A program made the translations under genes and the position numbers. From positions 1,984,001-2,048,000 of the forward strand of contig NZ_PJMS01000001.1 in assembly GCF_002846555.1 (NCBI RefSeq): 64,000 bases of DNA, written 5' to 3'. This document shows positions 2,756-60,728 of this stretch, in pieces. The notes under the pieces are model-generated. The model worked only from the letters and a program-made list of their open reading frames with translations. It was not told the DNA's origin and did not search any database. Positions within the stretch are counted from its first letter, which is position 1. Every line of letters starts with the position of its first letter. This stretch comes from Aquimarina sp. MAR_2010_214 (GTDB lineage Bacteria; Bacteroidota; Bacteroidia; Flavobacteriales; Flavobacteriaceae).

Positions 2756-4750
2756 TTGGCAATAAAAGAAAAAAACATATTAAACCGGTTGTATTTCATA
2801 GCAGCGTGTATGTTCGTCTTTGCAATAGCAGTATTGGCCAAGTTAGTGAATATACAGTTTGTAGAAGGAGATATGTATCGCCAGAAAGCTCAGGAGCGAG
2901 TTTTTAAAACTTTTGATATACCTGCAAATCGAGGTAATTTGTATGATAGCAAAGGGAACCTTTTGGCAACATCTGTCCCTAAATATGATATACGATTTGA
3001 TGCACTGGCAGTAAATGATAAAGATTTTAGAGCGCATATTAAGCCACTTTGTACAGCATTATCCAAAGAATTTGGGAAACCAGTTTCATATTATGATAAG
3101 ATTATAAGAACAGCAAGAGCTAATAAGAATAGATACTTGTTGCTACGAAGAAATTTAGGGTATTCTCAGTATATGAGGGTCAAAAAGTTTCCTTTGTTCG
3201 AATTTGGAGCCAATCGAGGAGGGTTAATAGTAGAACAACGCACAGTAAGAGAGCATCCTATAGGAAAGATAGCTGAACGTACTGTAGGGTATGAAAGAAG
3301 AGATGAGCAAGGGTATTATACCAGAGTAGGTTTAGAAGGAGCTTATGGGCCATTTTTAAGAGGGAAAGAAGGAAAACGAAAAAAACAAAAGATAGCAAAG
3401 AATCAATGGAAACCCATAGGGGATGCAAATGAAGTAGAGCCGCAAGATGGGTATGATGTTGTTTCTACCATTGATGTAAATATACAAGATATAGCGCATC
3501 ACGCATTACTAGCTCAACTTGAAATATTTGAAGCAGAGCATGGTACTGTAGTCGTTATGGAAACTAAAACGGGAGAAATAAAAGCCATCTCTAATCTAGG
3601 ACGTACTAATGCAGGAAAATATTATGAAAAACTAAATTATGCTGTTGGAGAATCTCATGAACCGGGGTCTACATTTAAATTGATGACAATGGTTGCAGCT
3701 TTAGAGGATAGAGTAATTGATTCAAGTTATGTAGTAGATACAGAAAATGGTCGTGTAAAATTTTATGATAGAATTGTGAAAGATTCAAAATGGGGAGGAT
3801 ACGGAAAAATATCTGTAGCAAAAGCATTTGAGTTATCATCGAATACTGCTTTCGCTAAAATGATTAATGAAAACTATAAAGATAATCCGAGAAAATTTGT
3901 AGATCGGTTAATTAATATGGGGCTTGGAGAAACACTTGGATTGGCAATTAAAGGAGAAGGGAAGCCTAAAATCCCTTATCCAGGAGATAAAGATTGGTAT
4001 GGGACTACATTGCCATGGATGGCACATGGTTATGGTGTTGCAATTACTCCATTACAAACATTAGTTTTTTATAACGCAATCGCTAATGATGGCGAAATGG
4101 TAAAGCCCAGATTTATTAAAGAAGTGAAAACTTGGGATAAAACCAGAGAGCGATTTGATAAAGAAATTCTTAATCCAACAATATGTTCTAAAGAAACCGC
4201 AAAAATTGTTCAGGAGATGATGGAAAATGTGGTTAAGAGAGGAACAGCAGACAATATTCGTACTGAGAATTTTGGTATTGCAGGCAAGACAGGTACATGT
4301 TGGGGGAATTACGGAAGAGATAAAGAACGTGAATATATATCATCTTTTGCTGGCTATTTTCCTTCTGATAAACCTATATACTCTTGTATTGTAGTGATTC
4401 ATAAACCAAATAAGAAAAAAGGATATTATGGTAGCGAGGTTGCTGCTCCAGTCTTTAAAACCATTGCCACAAAAATATATAATGATATACCAGTGATTGA
4501 TGAGGTGTCTTATGCTGTTGTAGAGAGTAATTCAGTGGTTAATAGTTATGAAAAGTATTATCAGAATGCTCAAAAATACAAAACTATAATGCCTAATGTA
4601 ACTGGTATGCCGGCAATGGATGTAATCTCTCTTTTAGAAAATATGGGGCTGAAAGTCGAATTAAAAGGATCGGGAAGAGTGAAAAAACAATCTATAAAGC
4701 CAGGAACTAAAGTGAAGATAAACCAAACAGTGAGATTAGAATTATCGTGA
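2756..4750 (+). CDS. ftsI: penicillin-binding protein, septal transpeptidase FtsI (PBP3-type)
   Basis: Class B penicillin-binding protein that cross-links septal peptidoglycan with FtsW. It has an N-terminal membrane anchor (about 11-33), a dimerisation/pedestal domain, and a transpeptidase domain with the three active-site motifs: STFK with the nucleophile S305, S361-S362-N363 and K511-T512-G513. The C-terminus (about 610-664) is a PASTA domain beginning MPNVTGMPAMDVI, a feature of Bacteroidota and Gram-positive homologues but not of E. coli FtsI. The start is TTG at 2756, 4 nt after the ftsL stop, because no ATG occurs before the membrane helix. The stop overlaps the murE start (GTGA). Confidence 0.95.
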   Translation: MAIKEKNILNRLYFIAACMFVFAIAVLAKLVNIQFVEGDMYRQKAQERVFKTFDIPANRGNLYDSKGNLLATSVPKYDIRFDALAVNDKDFRAHIKPLCTALSKEFGKPVSYYDKIIRTARANKNRYLLLRRNLGYSQYMRVKKFPLFEFGANRGGLIVEQRTVREHPIGKIAERTVGYERRDEQGYYTRVGLEGAYGPFLRGKEGKRKKQKIAKNQWKPIGDANEVEPQDGYDVVSTIDVNIQDIAHHALLAQLEIFEAEHGTVVVMETKTGEIKAISNLGRTNAGKYYEKLNYAVGESHEPGSTFKLMTMVAALEDRVIDSSYVVDTENGRVKFYDRIVKDSKWGGYGKISVAKAFELSSNTAFAKMINENYKDNPRKFVDRLINMGLGETLGLAIKGEGKPKIPYPGDKDWYGTTLPWMAHGYGVAITPLQTLVFYNAIANDGEMVKPRFIKEVKTWDKTRERFDKEILNPTICSKETAKIVQEMMENVVKRGTADNIRTENFGIAGKTGTCWGNYGRDKEREYISSFAGYFPSDKPIYSCIVVIHKPNKKKGYYGSEVAAPVFKTIATKIYNDIPVIDEVSYAVVESNSVVNSYEKYYQNAQKYKTIMPNVTGMPAMDVISLLENMGLKVELKGSGRVKKQSIKPGTKVKINQTVRLELS

Positions 4751-17714: not shown

Positions 17715-17788
17715 GGCCGCGTGGCGCAACTGAATAGCGCATCAGATTTCGGCTCTGAGGGTTGGGGGTTTGAATCCCTCCGCGGTCA
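17715..17788 (+). tRNA. tRNA-Arg (anticodon TCG)
   Basis: All cloverleaf parts can be drawn by hand. The acceptor stem is GGCCGCG with CGCGGTC and discriminator A. The D stem is GCGC/GCGC around AACTGAATA, the anticodon stem TCAGA/TCTGA around TTTCGGC gives anticodon TCG (reads CGA, arginine), the variable loop is 5 nt, and the T stem is GGGGG/CCCTC. CCA is not encoded. Its 3' end (17773-17789) is copied with 16 of 17 matches at 17918-17934 and 26906-26922, which marks it as an integration target. Confidence 0.93.
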
Positions 17789-27011: not shown

Positions 27012-27053
27012 AAGGTAACTATATACCCAGATATTAAGAAATATAGTTACCTT
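27012..27053. promoter_or_regulatory. 13-bp perfect inverted repeat upstream of an unknown gene
   Basis: AAGGTAACTATAT (27012-27024) and ATATAGTTACCTT (27041-27053) are perfect inverted copies 16 nt apart. Another half copy, TATAGTTAGTAA, precedes them at 27002. A perfect 12-bp palindrome ATTGTTAACAAT follows at 27068-27079, 9 nt before the gene at 27089. Likely operator sites; an RNA hairpin is also possible. Confidence 0.55.
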
Positions 27054-27088
27054 GGTACTTATATAACATTGTTAACAATAATTACGAA

Positions 27089-27625
27089 ATGGGATGGACG
27101 CAACAAGGTTATAATGCTCAAGGATTTAACCCCTCTTTTGGAATTAAATCTAACTTCTGGTATGTAGAATGTAATGGTGATGAAGATGACGAGATTGAAA
27201 AATTTGATGAATTAAAAGTTGATATAAACAATTGGGACGAGAAACTTAAAATAGTTTATGGGACGTCTGGCAGAGAATATTTTAGAGGTTATATATTAAC
27301 TAATGATACCAAAGCTGCTAAGTTCTTACTTGACAAGTTTCATAGATTTTTGGTCTATGAAGGGAAGTATGGAGGAGAGAAAGAATTTGATTCTAATAAG
27401 TTAACATTAATACCTTTTTTGAACATTATTATTTTTTTTGAAACCAATGCAAAAAGATATTTAATAGATGAAACCGTACCTCTAGCCGAAATAGCAGAAG
27501 AAATTTTTAAAGAATTAATGTTTGCTGTTAAACATGGGTTCATCAGTGATCTTGGAAAATCTCGAGAAGAAATTTCGAAAGAAATGAAAAGTAAAATATT
27601 GTTAACACAAAATAAACCCTATTAA
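27089..27625 (+). CDS. protein of unknown function
   Basis: A 178-residue, acidic, probably cytoplasmic protein; I do not recognise the family. It starts MGWTQQGYNAQGFNPSFG, has a hydrophobic strand or helix LTLIPFLNIIIFF near residue 107 and a C-terminal amphipathic helix. There is no signal peptide. It lies immediately outside the island border with its own apparent operator (27012-27079), and a hairpin overlaps its stop codon. It could be an immunity- or antitoxin-like single gene, but nothing in the sequence proves that. Confidence 0.65.
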   Translation: MGWTQQGYNAQGFNPSFGIKSNFWYVECNGDEDDEIEKFDELKVDINNWDEKLKIVYGTSGREYFRGYILTNDTKAAKFLLDKFHRFLVYEGKYGGEKEFDSNKLTLIPFLNIIIFFETNAKRYLIDETVPLAEIAEEIFKELMFAVKHGFISDLGKSREEISKEMKSKILLTQNKPY

Positions 27626-27639
27626 AACGAGGGTTTATT
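27611..27639 (+). terminator. terminator-like hairpin overlapping the stop codon of the unknown gene
   Basis: AATAAACCCT pairs perfectly with AGGGTTTATT around a 9-nt loop. The stem's T-rich 3' arm is not followed by a long T tract. It is followed at 27643 by AACCGTTACCCAAC, which resembles the right ends of the palindromic units further on. Confidence 0.55.
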
Positions 27640-27672
27640 CAAACCGTTACCCAACAAAAACAATTGAAATCA

Positions 27673-28623
27673 ATGAATAAAAAAAATACAACCAAAATTA
27701 TCAGTCTAATTTTCAGTCTGCTTGTCCTAGTAACTCACAGTTCTTACGCTGCAAATGCTAATTCTGATTTTGTAGTAACCACCATTACTCAAAACGTGTA
27801 TAGCATTGTTTCGCCCTCAAAAGGATTACCTACTCCTGAAAACAAAGGTTGGAATTCCAATGTTCACTTTGTAGTTACGGAAAAAGGGGTGCTACTTTTT
27901 GATTCTGGGTCTTCCGAATCAATTGGTAACAAAATAAAAAAAGCTATTAAATCGGTTACTGACCAACCAGTTCGTTGGATAATTAATTCACATAGTCATG
28001 CAGACCATTGGTTTGGTAATGCCGCGTTTACAAATACTGCTTTTGAAATTATTACAAGTAACAAAGCATTGGTAACAATGAAAGAGCATGGACAACCATC
28101 TTTGGAATTTTATTCTAAAGTGACTAAAGGCACCATTGGTTCTACTCAACTTGTGTATCCTACAGTAATATTATTGCAAGGAATAAAGCGAAATTTTGGA
28201 GGGATAGACGTAGAGTTTATTCTTTCTAATGATGGGCATTCCCCAGGGGATATATTAATTTGGTTACCAAAACAAAAAATCATAATCGGTGGAGATGTAT
28301 TAAGTTCTGATTGGATGCCAATGATTACTGGACATGGAAATGTTCCTAATTTAATTAGCATGCTTAACACTGTAGCAAAGTTAAATCCGACCATTGTCTT
28401 AACAGGTCATGGAAAAGCAACCAATGTAGAATCGGTAATACGAGATGCTGATTTATTGTCAAGTGTTTGGAAGCAGGTTAAATCTGATTATGAAAAAGGA
28501 AAAAAACCTAATGAAACTCTTAAAGATATTGAAGCTAAATTGACGCTTAAATACAAGCTCTTATATAACGATTTTAGTTCGGAAATTGAAAGACATGTTA
28601 ATCTTATGTATAAATTACAGTAA
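27673..28623 (+). CDS. metallo-beta-lactamase-fold hydrolase, exported
   Basis: Signal peptide (about 1-27, LVLVTHSSYAANA) followed by an MBL fold. The metal motif SHSHADHWFGNAAF supplies HxHxDH, DGHSPGD the later histidine, and TGHG the last metal ligand. Such proteins include subclass B lactamases, SoxH-like and glyoxalase-II-like enzymes. The 316-aa length and the lack of clear lactamase-specific residues make a general hydrolase more likely than an antibiotic-resistance enzyme. A TTG lies 9 nt upstream of the chosen ATG. The start is only 13 nt after the CCGTTACCCAAC palindrome-like end. Confidence 0.88.
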   Translation: MNKKNTTKIISLIFSLLVLVTHSSYAANANSDFVVTTITQNVYSIVSPSKGLPTPENKGWNSNVHFVVTEKGVLLFDSGSSESIGNKIKKAIKSVTDQPVRWIINSHSHADHWFGNAAFTNTAFEIITSNKALVTMKEHGQPSLEFYSKVTKGTIGSTQLVYPTVILLQGIKRNFGGIDVEFILSNDGHSPGDILIWLPKQKIIIGGDVLSSDWMPMITGHGNVPNLISMLNTVAKLNPTIVLTGHGKATNVESVIRDADLLSSVWKQVKSDYEKGKKPNETLKDIEAKLTLKYKLLYNDFSSEIERHVNLMYKLQ

Positions 28624-28702
28624 TTAGACATTTTTTCAAAGATTTCTTGGTTTCAGAATGAGTTTATTCATTTTCTATGAATGAGATATGAAAAACAAAT
28701 AT

Positions 28703-28721
28703 ACGTTGGGTAACAACGTGT
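28703..28721. repeat. left end of palindromic unit P1, cut by an insertion sequence
   Basis: ACGTTGGGTAACAACGTGT: a right-end motif ACGTTG and a left-end motif CAACGT share a 5-nt centre and form a perfect small palindrome (28703-28719). The rest of this unit resumes at 30164 beyond the insertion sequence. Confidence 0.55.
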
Positions 28722-28784
28722 CCTATGTAAAGCCCTTTCCCAAGTCTTAGGTTAAAAATACAATATTTTATTATTTTAATTATC

Positions 28785-29048
28785 TCATTCTAATGATTTT
28801 AGATTGTTGGATTGTTGGCAACGCCATTAAAGCGTTGTCAATACTTCAACAATAGCCCATTATAACTCCGCATCCTATATGTGGTATGATACAAAATCAT
28901 CCACCAGCATCACTATGATTATGATTGGCAAACAAGGCAACTTGCTATAAAATGTGATAACGGTTTAAAGCTTCACCCACGTTGTTTAGTTGTCCTTTTT
29001 TGTGCCAAAAGTATTGTCGAGTTTTTAGGCTTATATTTTTTATTTTTT
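28785..29048 (-). ncRNA. candidate bridge-RNA region of the IS element
   Basis: About 260 nt of noncoding DNA between the transposase stop and the element end. It contains a structured segment: TTGGCAACGC (28815-28824) pairs with GCGTTGTCAA (28832-28841), and outer ATTGTTG/CAACAAT arms enclose it. IS110-family elements are known to encode a guide (bridge) RNA in their noncoding end, and in IS1111-type members it lies downstream of the transposase. Location and structure fit; expression is not shown. Confidence 0.4.
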
Positions 29049-30104
29049 TCAACTTACCACTCCTATCTGATAGGGGGTTTCTGTTCTGATAATAGCATGA
29101 ATACGGCTCAGTAATTTTCTGGCCACCTTTACTAAAATCCTTTTCACATCTTTTCCCTTATGAGATCGGTAATATGCTTGCATCACAGGATCAAACCGTA
29201 AAGCAACCCAAGTAGCCTCTACCAGGTAACTTCTCATAATTCTGTTTGCTCTGGGAGTAAGGCCAGAAGTAGTCAAACTATCACCACTCTGGTGAACAGA
29301 TGGAATCAAACCAACATAACTAGCCAACTGCTTAAAATTCTTAAACCTTCGTAAATCGCCTAACTCACAAATGATCCCACATGCTACAATAGGACCTACT
29401 CCTGGAACACTCCTTAGTAAATAATAATCCTTCTTGTAATGTTTACGACAATAAGCGCGTAGTTTAACACTCACGTCTCGTTGTTGCTTGTCTACAAAAT
29501 CAAAAGATGCTAATCGGGTCTGCAAACAATAATCCATCGTGGTATAATCAAAGGATAAATTCTTTAGCCAATTTCTAAATTTATGAGACCAATGGGGTTG
29601 ATCTAACTCTTTGGGAATCTCAACTCCTAAATACAATAGTTGCATCTTGATTTGGGTTTTGATCTTACGCAGTTCTTTAACTAGATCATTACGCCTACGA
29701 AATAGACATCGTAAGTACTCCCGCTCAATATCTGGAACATGAATCCCTCGTAAACGACCATCTTTTAACTCCCTACATAATAATCGAGCATCGATCTTAT
29801 CGCTCTTCTGAAATTGTGCCTTGGCTGGCCGGTGAACATCAGCCGGGTTAACCACCATAGAACACCAACCAAAAGATTCAAATAAGCGATGATGACTAAA
29901 ACCACAACAACCAGATTCATAACAACAATATACCTGATATCCTGTAAAATGTTTGTCTACATATTTCTGTAATGCATAAGCATTGGGAGGAATCGTCAAA
30001 TCTGAGCCATCAAAAAGGTCGGTAGCTGTATGAATTTTCCAACTTCTCTTGTGTACGTCAATACCAATAAATAACTTTGAGTCTGTAGTATCCTTTGTTT
30101 TCAT
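29049..30104 (-). CDS. IS110-family transposase (DEDD)
   Basis: A 351-residue intact transposase. The N-terminal RuvC-like domain shows FIGIDVHKRSW (D16), YESGCCG (E63) and KSDKIDARL (D102, D105), giving the DEDD set. The C-terminal Transposase_20 domain shows LRSVPGVGPIVACGIICELG, FKQLASYVGLIPS and HQSGDS with a candidate catalytic serine. The frame has no internal stop, so it may be active. A relative that has lost most of this gene is at 37.6-37.8 kb. Confidence 0.93.
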   Translation of the reverse strand: MKTKDTTDSKLFIGIDVHKRSWKIHTATDLFDGSDLTIPPNAYALQKYVDKHFTGYQVYCCYESGCCGFSHHRLFESFGWCSMVVNPADVHRPAKAQFQKSDKIDARLLCRELKDGRLRGIHVPDIEREYLRCLFRRRNDLVKELRKIKTQIKMQLLYLGVEIPKELDQPHWSHKFRNWLKNLSFDYTTMDYCLQTRLASFDFVDKQQRDVSVKLRAYCRKHYKKDYYLLRSVPGVGPIVACGIICELGDLRRFKNFKQLASYVGLIPSVHQSGDSLTTSGLTPRANRIMRSYLVEATWVALRFDPVMQAYYRSHKGKDVKRILVKVARKLLSRIHAIIRTETPYQIGVVS

Positions 30105-30163
30105 AATAAATTAGTAGTTTGATTCATTATATAAACTTAGGATACTGCTTTTACATGGTTGCT

Positions 30164-30271
30164 ATAATTAATTGCTTAGGGCAGTGTTACTCGGAAAATC
30201 CGAAGGTTCGGTTTCCTTTTGGTAAATTAGTTGCGAAACAATCGCAACTAACCATATACAAATCCGTTGCC
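30164..30271. repeat. right part of palindromic unit P1
   Basis: Begins ATAATTAATTGC and ends CATATACAAATCCGTTGCC, the right-end pattern of the other units. An internal perfect 10-bp hairpin TTAGTTGCGA/TCGCAACTAA lies at 30227-30251. The left end of this unit is at 28703-28721. Confidence 0.6.
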
Positions 30272-30278
30272 ATTAATT

Positions 30279-30383
30279 ATGGAAAAACCTGAAAATCCTA
30301 ATAAAAAACTTGAATTAGTAATCAAAGATTCTGATTTACCTTCTCTATCCAAAGCATTAATTTGGGAACCACCTATCAAGTAA
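30279..30383 (+). CDS. possible 34-aa peptide directly after palindrome P1
   Basis: ATG at 30279, only 7 nt after the P1 end, and TAA at 30381. The peptide begins MEKPENPNKKLELVIKDSD and ends LIWEPPIK. It reads like protein rather than random sequence, but it is short and may be a truncated remnant of a cassette gene. No promoter was seen. Confidence 0.35.
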   Translation: MEKPENPNKKLELVIKDSDLPSLSKALIWEPPIK

Positions 30384-30423
30384 AAATTTTATTTCTAATT
30401 CTCAAGAATTGCTTTGAATAAAA

Positions 30424-31872
30424 CTATTTTGTATTTGCTTCGTAATAAGCATTCATTGTAGCTACAGATACATTTGGGTTTCTATGATGCTGTACAATTC
30501 TTTTGATTTTCAATTTCTCATCACGGACAAATTCTATAAACTGTTTTTCAACGTCAGATAAATGTGTCGCAATAGAATTATCTGCTGGAATTTCTAAAAA
30601 ATCACCTTCATAAATTAGTTGTTCTTTTTCAAAATAGACAAAACTTTGCTTTAAGCTATGATTATTTTTTAACACATAAAAACGAACCCCATTAATGTTT
30701 TTCTTATTTGTAAGTGTTTCAAATTTAAAGGTTTCTATTGTTTTATTAAATGCGGGAAAGTTTTGTATTGCATCAATAGTATAATCGTCTGCAAGTATGG
30801 TTATTCCTCTTTCTGCGTAAGCAGGTAAGCCACCAATATGGTCGTTATGTGGATGAGAAACAAATACAGATTGGATTGTTTTCATTGGAAATTTTTCACT
30901 AATTAAGTGCACAACTTTTTCAGTAATTTCATCATTACGAGGGGCTCCAAAAACCATAATATCATTCTTAATAATTTTTAAAAGAATAAATCGACTATTA
31001 TTTGCCACGTTAATTATGTAAATATCATTTGCTATTTTAGTGATTTTAGGTTCAGATTTTGCTGTTTTTTCTGGTATTTTATAACCATTTGGAACCATAA
31101 ATTTTGAAGAGGGGATTCCCATCGTTGTTTTAAAATTCTCAATAGAAACCGATGCACTAAATTTATTAGATCTATAAATATCTTGTTTTTCTGCATATTC
31201 AACACCATCTTTTGAAACAAAATCTCTATACTCGACAAAAGAATCATCTTCTGTACTTTTTAATTTTTTAAGTTTTAATGTAGACGACTCAAAAGTATAT
31301 GTATTGGTTATATCTTTATTAACTGTTTGTGTTAGTATTACAAACGTTTTTCCAACTTCTATTTTTAAAGGTTTCCCCATTTTATGGTTTGTTAATAAAA
31401 TGTGTACCTGCTCAAAACTTAAGACATCACCTGCTCTTTTACGTTGTTTTTCATAGGCATTTTTATCTAATTTTTTAAGTACTTTTCCTCTAATAACACC
31501 ATTTACATCGTATGAAACAGCTTTTTTGCTATTTTGAAAATGTTTGAATTCAAAAATAAAATTCCCTGGGAATTGACTTTTATCATGAGTGAAATATTCT
31601 TTTTTTTCCTTATCAACATCTATTGTATAGATACCAAATCGATTAATTTTAGCTTCTGGATGTTTATAATCATGACTTTGATAAGGGTTTAATCCCGTGA
31701 ACTTATAAGTCACTGTATATTTTTTTAGACCTGTTGTAAACTTGTATTTTTCGTTTAACATATCAATAATGTTGTCTGAAGTAATTTTTTGACCACAGGA
31801 TGATAAAGATGTTAAAATTAAAAGTGCAAGAATATTTACACGTATTAGTTTGCTTGTTCTCATTTTTTTCAT
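30424..31872 (-). CDS. lipoprotein with C-terminal metallo-beta-lactamase domain
   Basis: Lipoprotein signal ending LTSLSSC with C26, then an unrecognised N-terminal domain of about 240 residues and an MBL-fold domain from about residue 275. The metal motif is SHPHNDHIGG (near residue 338), and later YEGDFLE and QHHRNPN supply plausible ligands. The N-terminal half looks like a beta-rich outer-membrane lipoprotein domain (VTYKFTGLNPYQSHDY). Function unknown. It is the only gene of the palindrome-bounded region, apart from the transposase, on the minus strand. It is divergent from the LytTR regulator, which may control it. A minus-strand -7 match TATATTTG is at 31937-31930. Confidence 0.82.
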   Translation of the reverse strand: MKKMRTSKLIRVNILALLILTSLSSCGQKITSDNIIDMLNEKYKFTTGLKKYTVTYKFTGLNPYQSHDYKHPEAKINRFGIYTIDVDKEKKEYFTHDKSQFPGNFIFEFKHFQNSKKAVSYDVNGVIRGKVLKKLDKNAYEKQRKRAGDVLSFEQVHILLTNHKMGKPLKIEVGKTFVILTQTVNKDITNTYTFESSTLKLKKLKSTEDDSFVEYRDFVSKDGVEYAEKQDIYRSNKFSASVSIENFKTTMGIPSSKFMVPNGYKIPEKTAKSEPKITKIANDIYIINVANNSRFILLKIIKNDIMVFGAPRNDEITEKVVHLISEKFPMKTIQSVFVSHPHNDHIGGLPAYAERGITILADDYTIDAIQNFPAFNKTIETFKFETLTNKKNINGVRFYVLKNNHSLKQSFVYFEKEQLIYEGDFLEIPADNSIATHLSDVEKQFIEFVRDEKLKIKRIVQHHRNPNVSVATMNAYYEANTK

Positions 31873-32022
31873 TCTTTTTTAATGATTAATTTATGTATAG
31901 TAACTTTAGCATTACGTTAACTATCACTGCAAATATAGAATCAGATATATTTAATTATTTTAGCCAAACACCTGTAATGCCTTCAAACAAGGAGTTATTG
32001 TACTGAAATACGTGTTAAGAAA

Positions 32023-32859
32023 ATGCAAAAAAAAATTCAACACTCAATTTTAAGAAATCCTATATACATTTTAGGTTGTTATTCTATTTTGTTACTTCCT
32101 GAATTTATTAATTCTTGTAGTCATAAAGCTATAGTCACCTCTTTTTGGAATAATATTCCTTTGTGTAGTAAAGAATTTGTGTTTGCTCAGTTTTTAGGAA
32201 ACTCTATCTGGTCAATATTATTATTAGTTTTTGTATTTGAATCATTTAAAATTGCAAGTAGGTATTTTAAAATAACTTCATTCCCTACAAAAATAAAAGA
32301 ATGGTTGTTGTTTGAATTAAAACTAGTTCTTTCTTCGGTTATTGCTTTTTTAAGTTATTTGCTTATTGCCTATATATTTGCATGGTTTAATAAATCTATA
32401 GAAGAGATAGATCCTTTTAGTATTTTCTATAAAGCTATGGTTGTTGCATTTGTTGGTGTTCATGGAATAATATTTTTAAGTCATTTAAAATTTGTTAAAA
32501 ACCCTTTAATTCAAAAAATTGATGTAGAAGGGCCACTAGGTAAAATGCCAATAACAGTAAATGAAATTGTTTATTTTGAAAAAATTGAAAGGTACTATTA
32601 TGTGAATTCGGCTGATGTATCATATAAAATTAACTATAACTTATCAGATATAGAAAAAATGCTAGATAAAGCACACTTCTTTAGAATTAATAGAACCGTT
32701 ATAGTAAATGTAGAAGCAGTAGAGAGTTATTCTAGATGGGAGAACGAAAAATACATCGTTACTTTAATTAATAAAAAAGAGTTGGTTGCTACTAGAAAGC
32801 GTATTGTTGAATTAAAAGATTTAATAAAGAATTTAAAAAAACGGATTGACCTGTATTAA
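32023..32859 (+). CDS. membrane-bound LytTR transcriptional regulator
   Basis: A 278-residue protein with about four N-terminal transmembrane helices (residues 14-155) and a C-terminal LytTR DNA-binding domain (about 175-270) containing NEIVYFEKIERYYYVN and FFRINRTVIVNVEAVESY. It has no kinase or receiver domain, so the membrane part is probably the sensor. It is divergent from the MBL lipoprotein 150 bp away, the usual place for a dedicated regulator. Both genes lie between palindromes P1 and P2. Confidence 0.88.
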   Translation: MQKKIQHSILRNPIYILGCYSILLLPEFINSCSHKAIVTSFWNNIPLCSKEFVFAQFLGNSIWSILLLVFVFESFKIASRYFKITSFPTKIKEWLLFELKLVLSSVIAFLSYLLIAYIFAWFNKSIEEIDPFSIFYKAMVVAFVGVHGIIFLSHLKFVKNPLIQKIDVEGPLGKMPITVNEIVYFEKIERYYYVNSADVSYKINYNLSDIEKMLDKAHFFRINRTVIVNVEAVESYSRWENEKYIVTLINKKELVATRKRIVELKDLIKNLKKRIDLY

Positions 32860-32962
32860 CCCTATCTAAAATATTAGAATAAAAGCTATTTTTTTTCCTA
32901 TAAACTCAAGAATAGCAACCTGAAAGAAGTTAATCAATTTATAGAGAAAATAAAAAACTAAT

Positions 32963-33091
32963 GCCAACACCGTATAAAATTAATTGCTAATTTTAGCTTA
33001 TTTACAAAAGTTCTCGCGGACTTTCTATCTGTGTTTATTTACTAATTTTAGTGCTTGAAACACGCAACTAATCTTATACAACAACGTTGTC
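32963..33091. repeat. palindromic unit P2 (129 bp)
   Basis: Starts GCCAACACCGTATAA and ends TTATACAACAACGTTGTC. GTATAAAATTAATTGC (32972-32987) pairs with GCAACTAATCTTATAC (33064-33079) at 14 of 16 positions, so each strand can fold into a long hairpin. The end motifs recur in P1, P3, P4, P5 and P7. Confidence 0.75.
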
Positions 33092-33193
33092 ATTTACCAT
33101 GATGGATAACCCTTTTTGTAGCTACTTTGATATAAAATATTTCTAACTTAGTACGTTTAATTTCAATATATTGTTAATACTTTTTGCTAACCT

Positions 33194-34000
33194 ATGCTTA
33201 CTAATATTTTTTCTTTCTTTCTTAAAATTTCTCCACGACTGAAGCGAGCGGTCTGGAAAAAACTATATGAGTATCTGTCAAAGAAGTATCCAACAGAGGA
33301 GTGGATTTATATGAACTATGGATACGAATCTTGCAATGAACCTATTGGAATCCCACTGAAAGAGGAGGAAGAGCGTGACCGGTATATGATTCAGCTATAC
33401 CACCATGTGGCAACAGCTGTAGACCTTGTGGATAAAGACGTATTAGAAGTTGGTAGTGGACGTGGAGGAGGTTCGTCGTACATCAAACGATACCTTAAAC
33501 CAAAGACGATGATTGGAATTGATTACTCTAAAAACGCAATCAAATTCAGCAATAAACATCATTCGGTAGAAGGATTAACCTTTATTCATGGTGATGCGGA
33601 GAACTTATCGTTGGGGAATGAAAGTGTAGATGCGATTGTAAATGTAGAATCGTCACATTGCTACGGGTCCATGAAAAAGTTTGTGGAGCAAGTTAACAGA
33701 GTGCTTCGTCCTGGCGGGTATTTTTTGTTTGCAGACTTACGTCCCTCAGAAAAGATCGAAGAACTTGATAAGATTTTCAATGATGCAGGATTTGAAGTGC
33801 TTAAAAAGGAATTGATCTCGAAGGAAGTGGTCAATGCAATGGATGCATTTCACGAATTCAAGTTAGAATTCTTTCAAAATATGGTAAAGGGTTGGTTAAA
33901 AAAGCCGTTGAATGATTTTGCAGGAGTTAAGGGGTCGAACATCCATAAGGAATTGAGTAATGGTAAGGTGGTTTATTATCATTATGTGTTAAGAAAATGA
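33194..34000 (+). CDS. class I SAM-dependent methyltransferase
   Basis: A 268-residue enzyme with motif I VLEVGSGRGGGSSYI near residue 84, the acidic MIGIDYS end of strand 2, and LRPGGYFLFADLRP as the post-motif strand. It resembles small-molecule C- or O-methyltransferases of natural-product or lipid pathways; the substrate is unknown. The codons look more GC-rich than the neighbours (for example GCGAGCGGTCTGG at the start), which suggests a different donor. It sits alone between palindromes P2 and P3. Confidence 0.88.
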   Translation: MLTNIFSFFLKISPRLKRAVWKKLYEYLSKKYPTEEWIYMNYGYESCNEPIGIPLKEEEERDRYMIQLYHHVATAVDLVDKDVLEVGSGRGGGSSYIKRYLKPKTMIGIDYSKNAIKFSNKHHSVEGLTFIHGDAENLSLGNESVDAIVNVESSHCYGSMKKFVEQVNRVLRPGGYFLFADLRPSEKIEELDKIFNDAGFEVLKKELISKEVVNAMDAFHEFKLEFFQNMVKGWLKKPLNDFAGVKGSNIHKELSNGKVVYYHYVLRK

Positions 34001-34058
34001 TAAGCCTCTGCTTACTCCAACAGGTTTATCTAGACGCAGTATTAAATTGAAAAACTAA

Positions 34059-34187
34059 GCACAACAGAATATATAAAAATGCTTAAGATTTGGCTATCTT
34101 TGAGTTCTTCTCTACTTTTAAAACAAATCACGGCTGAAAAAACCGTCTCCCAAAAAGACGCACTTTTCATATACAAAACCGTTGTGT
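34059..34187. repeat. palindromic unit P3 (about 129 bp)
   Basis: Left end GCACAACAGAATATATAA, right end CATATACAAAACCGTTGTGT. The outer GCACAAC/GTTGTGT arms are complementary at 6 of 7 positions. Same length as P2. A 62-codon open frame across it is an artefact of the repeat. Confidence 0.6.
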
Positions 34188-34302
34188 ATCATTTTACAAC
34201 TTGTCGCCAAAATTCAACAATTCAGAATAAAAAAAATTGTAGGCCTCAAAAAAAAGCGGAATTTTGAAAATAGATATTTAAACTAATTTAATTAATAATA
34301 AA

Positions 34303-34428
34303 ATGGAACATTTAGCTACGATAGGTATTTTTTTTGCTGGTTTGGGAACTTTACTATGCAGTTTTGGAATCTTTTGGTTTGCATCGATTTATCAAAAAGT
34401 AAACGCGCCAAAGGAAGATAAATCATAA
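34303..34428 (+). CDS. 41-aa single-helix membrane peptide
   Basis: ATG 34303 to TAA 34428, between P3 and P4. The peptide has one strong transmembrane helix (about 6-28, with FFAGLGTLLCSFGIFWF) and a charged tail ending KEDKS. It occupies a whole unit: the stop codon is 6 nt before P4. Such solitary membrane peptides can be small regulators, toxins or cassette orphans; function unknown. Confidence 0.6.
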   Translation: MEHLATIGIFFAGLGTLLCSFGIFWFASIYQKVNAPKEDKS

Positions 34429-34434
34429 ACGACT

Positions 34435-34653
34435 ACACAACACCGTGTCCTATAAAACATAGCTAATAAGTGCAAATCGAAAGGTTTGCGCTTATTTACA
34501 AAGACTCCCAAATTTTTAAAGCTTGTGCCGAGCTTGTCAAAGTATGGCTTTTAAAATAAAAAAGTAAAAACAAAAGATAAAAATTCGACTCTGTGTTTAA
34601 CCGAAAAGTCAGCGTCTTTTTACACGCTACGTTTTATACAATAGACGTTGTGT
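34435..34653. repeat. palindromic unit P4 (219 bp)
   Basis: The outer arms ACACAAC and GTTGTGT are perfectly complementary; inside lie ACCGTGTCCTATAA and TTATACAATAGAC. A second hairpin AAGTGCAAATC/GGTTTGCGCTT (with wobbles) lies at 34468-34493. Longer than P2, P3 and P5, but with the same end pattern. Confidence 0.7.
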
Positions 34654-34680
34654 GTAACTAAAAACAGGCAAGAACAGAAT

Positions 34681-35565
34681 ATGACAATAGAACTAAAAAC
34701 TAATGCAGGAACAAGAATTGGCTCAATGGTTCTTGACCATATTGCAATGACATTTATCGCAATGATTTTTTTTATTCCTGGAATGGTTTCTAGATTTTCA
34801 ACCGCTTTTGAAGTAACTCACGAACAGTCAAATATTGATATTTTTGGTGGTTTAAGTTATGTTGGACTAATTGGACTTGCAATTTATTTCTGCAAAGACT
34901 GTATAAACGGACGTAGCATTGGAAAAAGAGCTTTAAAACTTCAAGTAGTTGAAAACTTAAGTGGAAATGTTGCTTCGCCAATTAGATGCTTTATTAGAGA
35001 TATATTTTGTGTCATTTGGCCTATAGAAGTAATTGTAACCTTAGCAAATCCAAGTAGAAGAATTGGAGATATGGTTGCTGGAACTAAAGTTGTTCCGTTT
35101 GACCCTGAGCTTGAACAACCGAAAAGTAACTTTGGACAAATTGGACTTGCACTCATACTCGCTTACGGAATTATGTTTCTATTAATGCTTCCTTTTGAAA
35201 GTCTAAAATCAAAATTAAAAAGTAATCAAGTAACTTATATTGAAAGTTCATTAAACGAACAAACAGCAAACGAAACGGAGCAAATTTTCAAAGATAGTTT
35301 AAGTGAACACTTAACTTCAGACGTCCTAATTTATGACCAAATAGAGCAGAACAAAGATTTAAAATACGTTTCTGTCATCCTAAGACTTAAAGAAAATTAT
35401 TTAGAGAATGACGATAATTATGAACAAATCAAATCAGCAACCGTACCACTGCTCTTAACTAAATTTCCAGAAGGAACTTTTGTTGGACAAATAAAATATA
35501 TCTATCAACAACCAAGAAGTATACATACTAGAACATTATCGCTTGATTGGAGAAAGAAAGAGTAA
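34681..35565 (+). CDS. RDD-family membrane protein
   Basis: A 294-residue protein with an N-terminal RDD domain (R near residue 10 and paired aspartates in helices) spanning about 10-145: TRIGSMVLDHIAMTFIAM, GRSIGKRALKL and RRIGDMVAGTKVV are typical. A further helix at about 155-175 and a C-terminal soluble part follow. RDD proteins are integral membrane proteins, some acting as ion transporters or targeting devices. ATG 34681 is chosen; an in-frame GTG at 34648 lies inside P4. The start is 27 nt after P4 and the stop 5 nt before P5. Confidence 0.85.
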   Translation: MTIELKTNAGTRIGSMVLDHIAMTFIAMIFFIPGMVSRFSTAFEVTHEQSNIDIFGGLSYVGLIGLAIYFCKDCINGRSIGKRALKLQVVENLSGNVASPIRCFIRDIFCVIWPIEVIVTLANPSRRIGDMVAGTKVVPFDPELEQPKSNFGQIGLALILAYGIMFLLMLPFESLKSKLKSNQVTYIESSLNEQTANETEQIFKDSLSEHLTSDVLIYDQIEQNKDLKYVSVILRLKENYLENDDNYEQIKSATVPLLLTKFPEGTFVGQIKYIYQQPRSIHTRTLSLDWRKKE

Positions 35566-35570
35566 AAAGG

Positions 35571-35669
35571 ACAGCACATAAAACAGTATAAAAATAATAA
35601 GGGTTAAGCGCCAAACCGAAAAGTAAGTACGTTTTAATCCCTTACTACTTTTTATATTAAACGTTGTGT
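35571..35669. repeat. palindromic unit P5 (about 99 bp)
   Basis: AGTATAAAAATAATAAGGGTTAA near the left pairs with TTAATCCCTTACTACTTTTTATATT near the right over about 20 bp with few mismatches, so this is a nearly complete hairpin. It ends TTAAACGTTGTGT, sharing TGTGTAAC with the end of P4. Confidence 0.7.
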
Positions 35670-35698
35670 GTAACTTTGAGTCGAACTGAATTTAAAAT

Positions 35699-36361
35699 AT
35701 GAGTTTTTTTAAAAGATTGTTTGGCAAAAAAGAAACGCCAACTGAAAAAGAATATACCGAAGAAGAACATGAAAAGGACTATGAATTAAAATCCAAAGGA
35801 CTTGAAGACATTCTTGGGGAAATGCATAATCTGGTTGGACATGCTATTATTCCTTTTGCTGTAGGTGGAGCAGTTGATATGTATTATTTTCCAAACCATA
35901 TAAAAGGAACTGGATTCGCAACAATGGAATTATTAGACCCAGATGGAAACGGACCGTTGAAAAATCGAATAGGAACCTATGAATTAGTCGCTTTCACCAG
36001 GCACAATTATAATACAAGTGAAGAAATTCAAACACCATTCAATCTGATAGAAAGACAAGCTTGTGGATTTTTAACTTCTATTGGGATGTACTCATCACAG
36101 GCGGTTCTTAATCCAAAAGAAACGATTGAAGTGCCAAATGGAGAAAATGAAGAAAATACTTGTTTGGTCTTAGACTTATATGAGCCTGACGGAAAGAAAT
36201 TTAAAATAGGGAATCGAGAGCACCACTTACTGCTTTGTCTACAAGTTTTTAGAAGCGAAATGGATTATGCAAGAGAAAACGGAAGCGATGAACTATTCAA
36301 ATTATTGAAAGAAAAAGGAGTTTACCCATATAGCGATTTGGATAGAGAACCTTTAATATAA
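35699..36361 (+). CDS. suppressor-of-fused (SUFU)-like domain protein
   Basis: A 220-residue soluble protein. The segment from RIGTYELVAFTRH to FRSEMDYARENGSDELFKLL, ending near YPYSDLDREPL, resembles bacterial SUFU-domain proteins, which are often immunity proteins or partners in polymorphic toxin systems. A charged, Lys/Glu-rich N-terminal 40 residues precede it. No toxin gene is adjacent. It starts 29 nt after P5 and ends 2 nt before the degenerate P6. Family assignment is by eye and moderate. Confidence 0.6.
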   Translation: MSFFKRLFGKKETPTEKEYTEEEHEKDYELKSKGLEDILGEMHNLVGHAIIPFAVGGAVDMYYFPNHIKGTGFATMELLDPDGNGPLKNRIGTYELVAFTRHNYNTSEEIQTPFNLIERQACGFLTSIGMYSSQAVLNPKETIEVPNGENEENTCLVLDLYEPDGKKFKIGNREHHLLLCLQVFRSEMDYARENGSDELFKLLKEKGVYPYSDLDREPLI

Positions 36362-36363
36362 AA

Positions 36364-36431
36364 AAGGCAATACACGATAATTTGTATAATGTATATGCGC
36401 CCTGGGGAATGCAGAGGTGCGAAACGTTAGC
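36364..36431. repeat. degenerate palindromic unit P6
   Basis: GGCAATACACG on the left and GAAACGTTAGC on the right, with a GC-richer centre (GCGCCCTGGGGAATGCAGAGG). The ACGTT end is kept but pairing between the ends is weak. It holds the same place between two genes as the other units. Confidence 0.35.
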
Positions 36432-36578
36432 AATAATTTATGATAATATTTCTAAATTAATGCTTGAAAGATAAGGAACAAATAACCTTCTGTAAGACTA
36501 TAATTCGTCAAAGAAACCACAAGGGATATGTAACATACATAAGTTTTATAACACTTATATTCAAAATCAATAAATCAA

Positions 36579-37592
36579 ATGAAAAACTTAAGTATTTATT
36601 TCCTTACTCTTATTTCAGTTTTATTAATGAGTTGTAACTCAAACTCAAAAAAAGAAACGCATCCAAAAAACATAATTCGATCAAGTATAAAAGTAAAAAA
36701 GAGCTCTTCGATCAATAAAATTGAAGACACCCGAATTATAAAGGTTAAACTAGGTGTTAATTCCAATCGGATATCTAATGAATGGAAAAATGTATTAGGA
36801 AGTAGGAAGAGTGCTTCTAAACTTGATTCTCTATCAAATGTGGTTAAACAATTAACAAAGGAAGAACAAGATTGGATAAACTTAATTGAATCCAAAACAA
36901 GTAAATGGAATGCATTTAGAGACTCACTAAAAGTACCTTTTCAGAATATCAGACTTAAAGATACCATTTCTGTCCTTTTGGGGTATCAAGGTGGAGATGA
37001 TGCTTTTACCTATAAAAATAAAACTATTTGTCTCGATGTAAATGCATTGCACAAAGCATACGGTTCTGCAAAAAAATCTGTTAATGACAATCGAATTGAC
37101 CGTATATTTGCACACGAATTCACACATTTACTTCACAAAGAATGGGCAAAAGAAAATAACTTAAAACTCGATACATTCAAAGATCAGATTTTGTGGGAAT
37201 GTGTAACGGAAGGCTTTGGGATGTATCGTTCGATGTCAACTAAATGGTTTCCTATAGGAGATTCCTTATCATTGACATCAAAAAAAACTTTCGAAAATTT
37301 ATATCCAAAATTTACGGAGAGAATCATTAAAGTATGTACCCAATCAAACCTTACAAGTGAAGAAGAAAACAATTTGCATGCAAACCTGTCTAGAGGTTCT
37401 ATGAAAAAAAAATGGGGTGCTTTGCCAGTTGCGGTATGGCTTGCGTTAGAAGCGAAAGGGAATGATAAGAATCTTGTAAAATGGGTGAACAAAGGACCAG
37501 ATGCCATAATTCTGTTAGCAGAAAAATATTTAACAAATGAAAGCAAAATAGCATTTGATGAATTCTTGAAAAGTAATAAAAGTTCTAAATAA
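36579..37592 (+). CDS. lipoprotein zinc metallopeptidase-like protein
   Basis: Lipoprotein signal with LLMSC. The zinc motif HEFTH is near residue 180 (FAHEFTHLLHKEW), and WECVTEGFGMY about 30 residues later gives a glutamate that could be the third ligand, the gluzincin pattern. It is likely an extracytoplasmic peptidase; the substrate is unknown. The stop codon is 8 nt before palindrome P7, so again one gene fills one unit. Confidence 0.8.
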   Translation: MKNLSIYFLTLISVLLMSCNSNSKKETHPKNIIRSSIKVKKSSSINKIEDTRIIKVKLGVNSNRISNEWKNVLGSRKSASKLDSLSNVVKQLTKEEQDWINLIESKTSKWNAFRDSLKVPFQNIRLKDTISVLLGYQGGDDAFTYKNKTICLDVNALHKAYGSAKKSVNDNRIDRIFAHEFTHLLHKEWAKENNLKLDTFKDQILWECVTEGFGMYRSMSTKWFPIGDSLSLTSKKTFENLYPKFTERIIKVCTQSNLTSEEENNLHANLSRGSMKKKWGALPVAVWLALEAKGNDKNLVKWVNKGPDAIILLAEKYLTNESKIAFDEFLKSNKSSK

Positions 37593-37600
37593 AAGCAATT

Positions 37601-37611
37601 GCCAACACCGT
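37601..37611. repeat. left end of palindromic unit P7, cut by an IS remnant
   Basis: GCCAACACCGT, identical to the start of P2. It is followed at once by TATTCTATGTAAAGCC, matching the left end of the IS element at 28722. Confidence 0.55.
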
Positions 37612-37802
37612 ATTCTATGTAAAGCCTTTTCCTGAGACTTAAGTTAAAAACACGAAATTTTATTATTTTAATTTTCTACATAATAATCGAACATCGATCT
37701 TATTGGTTTTCTAAAACTGTGCCTTTGCAGAACGATGGATATCAACTGGGTTGACCATCAGAGAATGCCAATCAAGGGATTCAGAAAAACGATGATGACT
37801 AT
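37612..37802 (-). mobile_element. decayed IS110/IS1111-type remnant
   Basis: 37612-37672 matches the left end of the IS at 28722-28784 with scattered changes. Then, after an internal deletion, 37672-37802 matches transposase codons corresponding to 29771-29900 (ACATAATAATCGAACATCGATCTTAT region). Order and orientation are the same as in the intact copy. Many substitutions show it is old. Confidence 0.8.
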
Positions 37803-60293: not shown

Positions 60294-60563
60294 TTACTTT
60301 CTTAATCCTAATTCTTTTACAATTGCACGATATCTCATGATATCCTTTTTAATAAGGTAGTCTAACAGATCTCTACGTTTTCCTACCAGCTTTACTAAAG
60401 AACGCTCTGTATTAAAATCTTTACGATTCTTTTTTAAGTGCTCAGTAAGATGAGTAATTCTGTGGGTAAACAATGCAATTTGACCTTCTGCAGAACCACT
60501 GTCATTCTTTCCTTTACCGTGCTTTGCGAAGATTTCTTCTTTAACTTCTTTCGTTAAATACAT
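60294..60563 (-). CDS. rpsO: 30S ribosomal protein S15
   Basis: 89 residues starting MYLTKEVKEEIFAKHGKG. It binds 16S rRNA helix 22. GSAEGQIALFTHRITHLTEHL and LVKLVGKRRDLLDYLIKKD are diagnostic. A longer frame upstream to 60620 adds 19 residues unlike any S15, so ATG 60563 is the start. Confidence 0.97.
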   Translation of the reverse strand: MYLTKEVKEEIFAKHGKGKNDSGSAEGQIALFTHRITHLTEHLKKNRKDFNTERSLVKLVGKRRDLLDYLIKKDIMRYRAIVKELGLRK

Positions 60564-60728
60564 TCCAATATTATTTAAATGATTTTTATGTATAAATAGC
60601 TCTTTGCTATTAGCGTGCAAATATAATATTTTTTGGATTAGAAATACATTTTATATGAAAAAACATAATGTAATTAAACGTTTTACATAATATATGGTCT
60701 TAGTATCGTAACGTTAAAATTAAATATT

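Follow-up and report, generated by a model that had tools for sequence, protein, structure and literature searches.

The 64-kb window analyzed here, positions 1,984,001–2,048,000 of the closed 5.98-Mb genome of Aquimarina sp. MAR_2010_214, contains between 27.0 and 37.7 kb eight gene units that run mostly in one direction and are separated by imperfect palindromes. We conclude, with a probability of roughly 0.87, that this array consists of integron-type gene cassettes moved by a XerA-like recombinase that is not an IntI, and that the copy in the window is a decaying satellite. The array looks integron-like in the available architecture and comparative tests: as read from sequence, the arms of the units, the position of a putative attI, the common direction of the sites, their association with a recombinase and the relocation of whole units all point this way. 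An initial annotation of this DNA had proposed a cassette-type array of seven units between palindromes P1–P7. The array itself is borne out by the arm rule, the attI junctions and unit relocation, but an eighth unit at the left end, with its attI-like hairpin and attC1, had been missed (Table 1).

The arms of the units provide the clearest evidence. In an integron array, the right arm of one attC lies at the start of a cassette and the left arm of the following attC at its end. We compared the 7 nt after the GTT of each site (k−1) with the complement of the 7 nt before the AAC of the next site (k) and found at least 6 of 7 matches in 126 of 167 adjacent pairs. The same threshold was reached by 7 of 195 pairs of arms taken from the same palindrome, 3 of 165 taken in the wrong order and 372 of 20,000 random pairs (1.9%). 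As the arm bases lie outside the covariance model described below, the rule is free of circularity. Arm sequences differ from unit to unit, and their complementarity runs across the gene unit; the complementary outer ends that the initial annotation noticed in P4 do match, but pairing within one palindrome is rejected as the rule. The units have a median length of 766 bp and form tandem, one-direction arrays. Amongst 121 validated cassettes, the longest open reading frame (ORF) runs along the array in 104 and opposite to it in 12, with five lacking an ORF of 40 aa; in the 104, the ORF starts a median of 24 nt after the beginning of the GTT and stops a median of 14 nt before the end of the AAC.

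The palindromes can be recognized independently of the window. Used as a DNA query, P4 matched 14 places in its own genome and was matched in 28 of 36 genomes searched, its own included; the longer matches fall in co-directional clusters, while short ones near the E-value limit may be chance. A simple detector (AACA...CGTT plus a complementary stem) returned 61 sites in 47 loci, compared with two in reversed sequence. A covariance model, R1, trained on 38 sites all lying outside the window, identified 225 sites at E 0.1 or better in the 45 loci searched, none of which carries sites on both strands. Three of these sites are P2, P4 and P5, confirming that the annotated palindromes between gene units are real; P1, P3, P6 and P7 gave no R1 match in the window. 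Stem cells are paired in 95.9% of cases in R1 sites, as opposed to 21–44% when slid, the stem covariation score is 0.652 (0.190 when shuffled), and both sides change in 14 of 16 stem pairs. Each hairpin comprises outer arms, a spacer and an inner stem, its left side having one unpaired base more than its right, an anatomy from which we infer the use of a folded single strand. Folding of individual palindromes as single-stranded DNA is weak evidence: P2, P3, P5, P6 and P7L show no unusual stability (z −1.5 to +0.1), P1L is borderline (z −1.9), and P4 (z −2.6) and P1R (z −4.3) are stable. A first DNA alignment of P1–P7 was uninformative, and a right-end pattern scan of viral contigs gave 0 matches.

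The initial annotation saw no integrase, and this holds within the 64-kb window (five tblastn matches of 12–26 aa, best E 0.31) but not for the genome, which carries two 375-aa recombinase copies, 98% identical, elsewhere. A search with TIGR02249 produced sub-threshold matches, the best-scoring of which adjoin arrays in several genomes. Downstream of the recombinase stop codon, 14 of 17 loci contain a GTT plus 7 nt that match the arm of the first detected attC at 6 of 7 positions or better. Thirteen of these putative attI junctions lie 35–50 nt past the stop and one lies at 177 nt; since the search began 300 nt ahead of the stop and extended as far as the first detected site, it is this clustering that counts. 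In 24 of 37 loci the attI GTT follows a short palindrome whose sequence differs between genomes. For copy 1 of our genome, a short attC-like site 2.3 kb farther along, missed by R1, supplies an exact arm partner.

Related recombinase loci part company at this junction. For 13 related pairs chosen by hand, of which 11 gave values, identity was 0.78–0.99 to the left of the junction, and to the right 0.57–0.64 in 10 of the 11; the pair G014/G025, with 0.97 on the right, has its first cassette in common. (For the set G014/G025/G043/G006, the split was placed 11 nt left of the true GTT.) The two copies in our genome are 0.99 identical left of the GTT and 0.59 right of it, with homology that sets in ~460 nt upstream of the gene and breaks off at about the attI GTT. 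A looser search for arm partners (1 mismatch, 150–6000 nt on) succeeded from 188 of 880 random GTTs, so a partner found in this way alone is no evidence; we relied on a match to the first detected site or on an exact match. Of 53 loci, some of which have too little downstream sequence for the test, 13 contain an exact attI/first-arm pair, compared with 5 matches for two control patterns together, and several of the 13 (for example, L234) may be chance. Related loci occur in Winogradskyella, Seonamhaeicola, Aequorivita, Rufibacter, Pontibacter and Mediterranea, and amongst 80 named contigs R1 gave 20 matches in 8 of 58 loci searched.

Sites and recombinase also travel together across genomes. 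R1 sites are present in 51 of 52 genomes of the genus (at most 54 candidates scored per genome), with dozens of attC-like sites in many Aquimarina genomes, and in 65 of 296 genomes of the order (at most 9 candidates scored per genome), placing the palindromes well beyond this locus. The recombinase occurs at E 1e-70 or better in 24 of the 296, and sites were found in 21 of these 24 as opposed to 44 of the other 272 (Fisher p ~1e-12); a tyrosine recombinase that tracks the repeat, as the initial annotation had anticipated, does exist and sits just upstream of arrays. On the 10 contigs with both, all 21 sites compared, those farther than ~35 kb being left out, lie within ~35 kb downstream of the recombinase on the same strand. 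One could argue that the cassettes are real yet moved by Xer or another integrase, with the linked recombinase a passenger, as the association is correlative and 44 of the 65 order genomes with sites have no recombinase at E 1e-70 or better. We consider this improbable and reject it on the fixed position of the cassette junction, which follows the recombinase stop by ~40 nt in the majority of the Aquimarina loci examined and in several from other genera, and on the co-directional, downstream placement of 21 out of 21 compared sites.

We next consider what kind of recombinase this is. The catalytic half of the ~375-aa protein is best matched, in sequence and fold, by XerA and archaeal Xer (4a8e, 5hxy; NF040815), whose solved chains align only with residues 108–368; the N-terminal ~105 residues and the cassette arrays set the present system apart from them. 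Across 53 homologues, R234, K259, R326, H349 and Y358 never vary and H323 hardly does; by analogy with the family, all six are assigned catalytic roles. A fold model (mean predicted local distance difference test score, pLDDT, 83; predicted template modeling score 0.55) had Xer and IntI4 as its top structural matches. The NCBIfam model NF040815, just reached by the protein of our genome (220.1, cut-off 220), is described as "site-specific tyrosine recombinase/integron integrase", so that part of the naming already exists.

That description, the resemblance of the recombinase to IntI4 (2a3v) in sequence and fold, and the matching architecture of recombinase, attI, co-directional single-gene cassettes and an attC split across the unit would also suit a canonical integron with an ordinary IntI and ordinary attC sites that have merely diverged. 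The IntI4 match, however, comes in two pieces, with ~45 residues of IntI4 missing (recombinase 293–304 opposite IntI4 192–248), and an IntI-type insertion is absent from all 53 aligned homologues. TIGR02249 scores above its cut-off in 0 of 52 genus genomes (187 for our protein, cut-off 265), and in a quick tree of 71 proteins, 12 IntI and four others form a branch with a Shimodaira–Hasegawa-like approximate likelihood ratio support of 100 that includes no candidate. The canonical attC R-box consensus is GTTRRRY/RYYYAAC; only 20 of 194 sites fit the former and 15 of 194 the latter, in line with the initial annotation's remark that the ends are not strictly GTTRRRY. By two defining features, the IntI domain and the R-box consensus, the system falls outside the IntI integron family; with the tree, these largely refute the canonical reading, which we regard as very improbable.

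The recombinase has an N-terminal domain of its own, whose first 75 residues are modeled as a beta-beta-alpha-beta-beta-alpha-beta unit. Pfam HARP matches 3 of 27 N-terminal segments of the wider family (best 6.4e-7), and its cut-off is reached by one of six full proteins scanned (26.4, cut-off 25). HARP domains bind forked DNA. The N-terminal profile matched the SMARCAL1 chain 4o66, its HARP domain, only weakly (E 0.88), with two designed proteins and a domain of a retroviral integrase ranking higher; a single-sequence fold of the domain (pLDDT 43) was useless. A Spirochaetota contig from a metagenome-assembled genome (locus L187) carries a wider-family recombinase with HARP above cut-off and a possible attI/arm pair.

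Comparison of cassette bodies amongst the fetched arrays indicates that cassettes relocate as units, and the gene content does change at palindrome ends, as a cassette system predicts, in a good part of the comparisons. In 22 homologous rows, which include five pairs seen from both sides, the left edge of homology falls within 5 nt of GTT in 6, and the right edge lies no more than 20 nt from AAC in 6 and no more than 5 nt from the attC end in 8; five alignments were inspected base by base. Units of the window were also sought in the 52 genus genomes and occur unlinked in other Aquimarina, frequently with homology that stops at GTT or AAC, with edges checked in 15 fetched places, 9 of which contain R1 sites at E 1e-6 or better and one more at 3e-5. 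In all four of its places the DUF5700 unit starts within 4 nt of GTT, and in 2 of the 4 it stops 5 nt beyond the start of AAC. For the methyltransferase unit, homology reaches 4 or 20 nt beyond the attC end marker in 2 of 4 places and is confined to the gene in the other 2; its left edges are at −38, −8, +6 and +80. Homology of the SUFU and RDD units is mostly confined to gene bodies, although one RDD match extends into an attC, starting 102 nt ahead of GTT. In genome G001 these four units are scattered over four places, with 23 kb between two of them. That the palindromes are non-mobile repeats (repetitive extragenic palindromes, miniature inverted-repeat transposable elements or terminators) between genes of plastic regions fits their intergenic, repetitive nature and stops at a terminator-like distance, but is barely credible and is rejected because the arms are unit-specific and match across genes, unlike a palindrome moved by itself, and in view of the fixed junction after the recombinase gene, the single orientation per locus and relocated units with edges at GTT or AAC.

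Several observations weigh against the proposed cassette system. Many other homology edges lie inside the cassette body, and some inside attC or into the neighboring site. In several pairs (L089/L068, L096/L065, L067/L071, and window 36426–37604 compared with L280 and L281), the same body carries a different attC core, and the change falls at AAC. Such a pattern is not expected of simple integron recombination, in which body and core stay together, so either a different route exchanges the cores or the recombinase is able to act on the AAC side as well. A 6-of-7 attI match is lacking at three of 17 recombinase loci; copy 2 of our genome matches at 5 of 7, and locus L101 gave no attI arm match. 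Of the recombinase-positive genomes of the order, 3 of 24 have no site, while 44 of 272 recombinase-negative ones do. In the quick tree the 33 candidate recombinases are spread over more than one clade (6 changes); the Aquimarina recombinase itself has no significant HARP match, and DUF5710 matches more of the N-terminal segments than HARP does (4 of 27, best 9.8e-5). Stem covariation is partly circular because the model seeds were picked for stem complementarity, and further pair types in the stem (24, 22.6 when shuffled) show no excess over chance. Finally, recombination itself is a prediction from sequence.

Turning to the window array, the hairpin at its left end has the same anatomy as the site 3' of intact integrase genes at other loci. 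Since this attI-like hairpin is kept but no recombinase is, we regard the array as a decaying satellite. Arm scores fall from 10 of 10 in the first two units to 4 of 10 in unit 7 (Table 1); low scores look like decay, and on these scores the array is partly decayed. Against six relatives (~17 kb upstream of a conserved neighbor), no clean empty site for the array was found, the relatives having DNA in common with the window only from ~37977 rightwards, short matches aside.

Table 1 The array in the window and associated features. Positions are in the window unless marked as genome; arm scores are matches out of 10, GTT included.
Feature	Position	Strand	Arms	Details
attI-like hairpin	27043..27073	+		palindrome (~27043–27070), AACATT, then GTT at 27071; inverted repeat; no integrase gene adjoining
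Unit 1	27071..27645 (unit body 27071–27604)	+	10/10 (GTTAACAATA / TATTGTTAAC)	178-aa ORF 27089–27625
attC1	27604..27648	+		45 nt; from sequence and arms
Unit 2	27646..28714	+	10/10	metallo-beta-lactamase (MBL)-fold protein, ORF to 28623
attC2 (P1)	28712..30268	+		split by IS110-family element; left half from 28712, right half to 30268
IS110-family DEDD transposase	29049..30104	-		351 aa; Pfam PF01548 and PF02371
Unit 3	30266..32968	+	9/10	two genes
Unit 3, MBL-fold protein	30424–31872	-
Unit 3, LytTR protein	32023–32859	+
attC3 (P2)	32966..33088	+		R1, 36.6 bits, E 0.0007
Unit 4	33086..34065	+	7/10	methyltransferase 33194–34000; copies elsewhere in other genomes
attC4 (P3)	34063..34183	+		from sequence and arms; homologous copies in loci L276 and L277
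Unit 5	34181..34441	+	8/10	41-aa ORF 34303–34428
attC5 (P4)	34439..34649	+		R1, 78.5 bits
Unit 6	34647..35584	+	7/10	RDD protein 34681–35565
attC6 (P5)	35580..35665	+		R1, 54.3 bits
Unit 7	35663..36376	+	4/10	SUFU-domain protein 35699–36361; decayed
attC7 (P6)	36374..36428	+		decayed; from sequence and arms
Unit 8	36426..37606	+	8/10	protein 36579–37592, DUF5700 (putative zinc peptidase) match
attC8 (P7)	37604..37801	+		left half, then relics of IS110-family element
Near-complete IS110-family copies	window 28712–30268; genome 4074066, 4091063, 4922042
Recombinase copy 1	genome 4,096,550–4,097,674	-
Recombinase copy 2	genome 4,913,394–4,914,518	+

The IS110-family element that splits attC2 is present in four near-complete copies genome-wide, each within a cassette array. 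Relics at 950, 960, 3377 and 2021.6 kb also lie in or beside arrays, and there are two partial matches at 4204–4208 kb. Insertion inside an attC was seen at attC2 and at one attC at 4.091 Mb, and the element looks like an attC-targeting insertion sequence (IS). ISKpn4 and ISPst6, of the IS1111-attC group, are likewise described in attC sites (PMC11187229); the shared feature is an IS110/IS1111-type DEDD transposase element inserted in attC, while host, attC type and sequence differ here. Further traits of that group are subterminal inverted repeats and a target-selecting non-coding RNA. Compared with related attC sites, P4 has three extra bases (CCT) where the IS110 element joins in attC2, which may be an IS footprint. 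Elsewhere in the window, Rfam matched only an S15-Flavobacteria leader (60561–60625) and a tRNA gene (17715–17788), both ordinary.

We propose the following mechanism for the cassette system. A cassette would consist of a GTT and ~7 unit-specific nt, usually one gene, and the complementary 7 nt with AAC; the attC core would follow the AAC and end in the next GTT, such that in a circular cassette the two arms would meet to form a complete attC hairpin. The enzyme responsible, probably a tyrosine recombinase of XerA-like type that lacks the IntI domain and carries an additional N-terminal domain (HARP-like in distant members), would bind the folded single-strand attC, cut at GTT and insert cassettes at the palindromic attI that immediately follows its gene; excision and shuffling of cassettes would be its work as well. 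The decaying satellite in the window could be served in trans by the intact copies at 4.10 and 4.91 Mb. Within this scheme, we infer the single-strand folding, the strand cut, the action in trans and the role of the N-terminal domain.

The arrays share with integrons a recombinase gene, an adjacent attI-like site, tandem co-directional and mostly single-gene cassettes, and attC-like hairpins (with the same outer arms, spacer, inner stem and extra left unpaired base) whose arms pair across the cassette. They differ in a recombinase from another branch that lacks the IntI-specific domain and has an N-terminal domain of its own, in arms of GTT and ~7 nearly free nt rather than GTTRRRY, and in an attI palindrome just downstream of a co-directional recombinase gene. 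Class 1 integrons have a divergent layout of the integrase gene, whereas here the recombinase lies upstream of the array and points the same way. Like a cluster of attC sites lacking integron integrases (CALIN), the window array has attC-like sites and cassettes but no integrase in the 64 kb; unlike one, it retains an attI-like hairpin and has attC sites of a non-canonical type. PMC9668308 defines an integron integrase by the IntI-specific additional domain and requires a minimum of two attC spaced by less than 4 kb; the recombinase here lacks that domain, and the sites are spaced within that distance.

PMC8618304 lists Bacteroidota amongst the phyla with integrons, and of 395 genomes of the phylum 105 have a canonical IntI above cut-off. 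One of the 108 phylum genomes with an IntI match at 1e-50 is labeled as the window's class and the others only as the phylum, a figure that depends on the share of this class in the 395 and that may hint at replacement. We found no description of these arrays in a search confined to open PMC papers. They would represent a new variant of the integron, perhaps of separate origin. More tentatively, and at somewhat less than even odds, we suggest a second, independently evolved kind of integron in Bacteroidia, in which a XerA-like recombinase would have acquired, in place of the IntI domain, a HARP-like domain for single/double-strand junctions, would recognize attC and the palindromic attI by their shape and not their sequence, and could exchange attC cores in addition to cassette bodies. 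Standard integron surveys that require the IntI-specific domain, as in PMC9668308, would pass over this recombinase. If the mechanism works as proposed, these arrays would constitute a large uncounted reservoir of mobile genes in Bacteroidia and, if true, would offer a natural comparison for a long-standing question, namely what parts an integrase must have in order to recombine a folded single strand.

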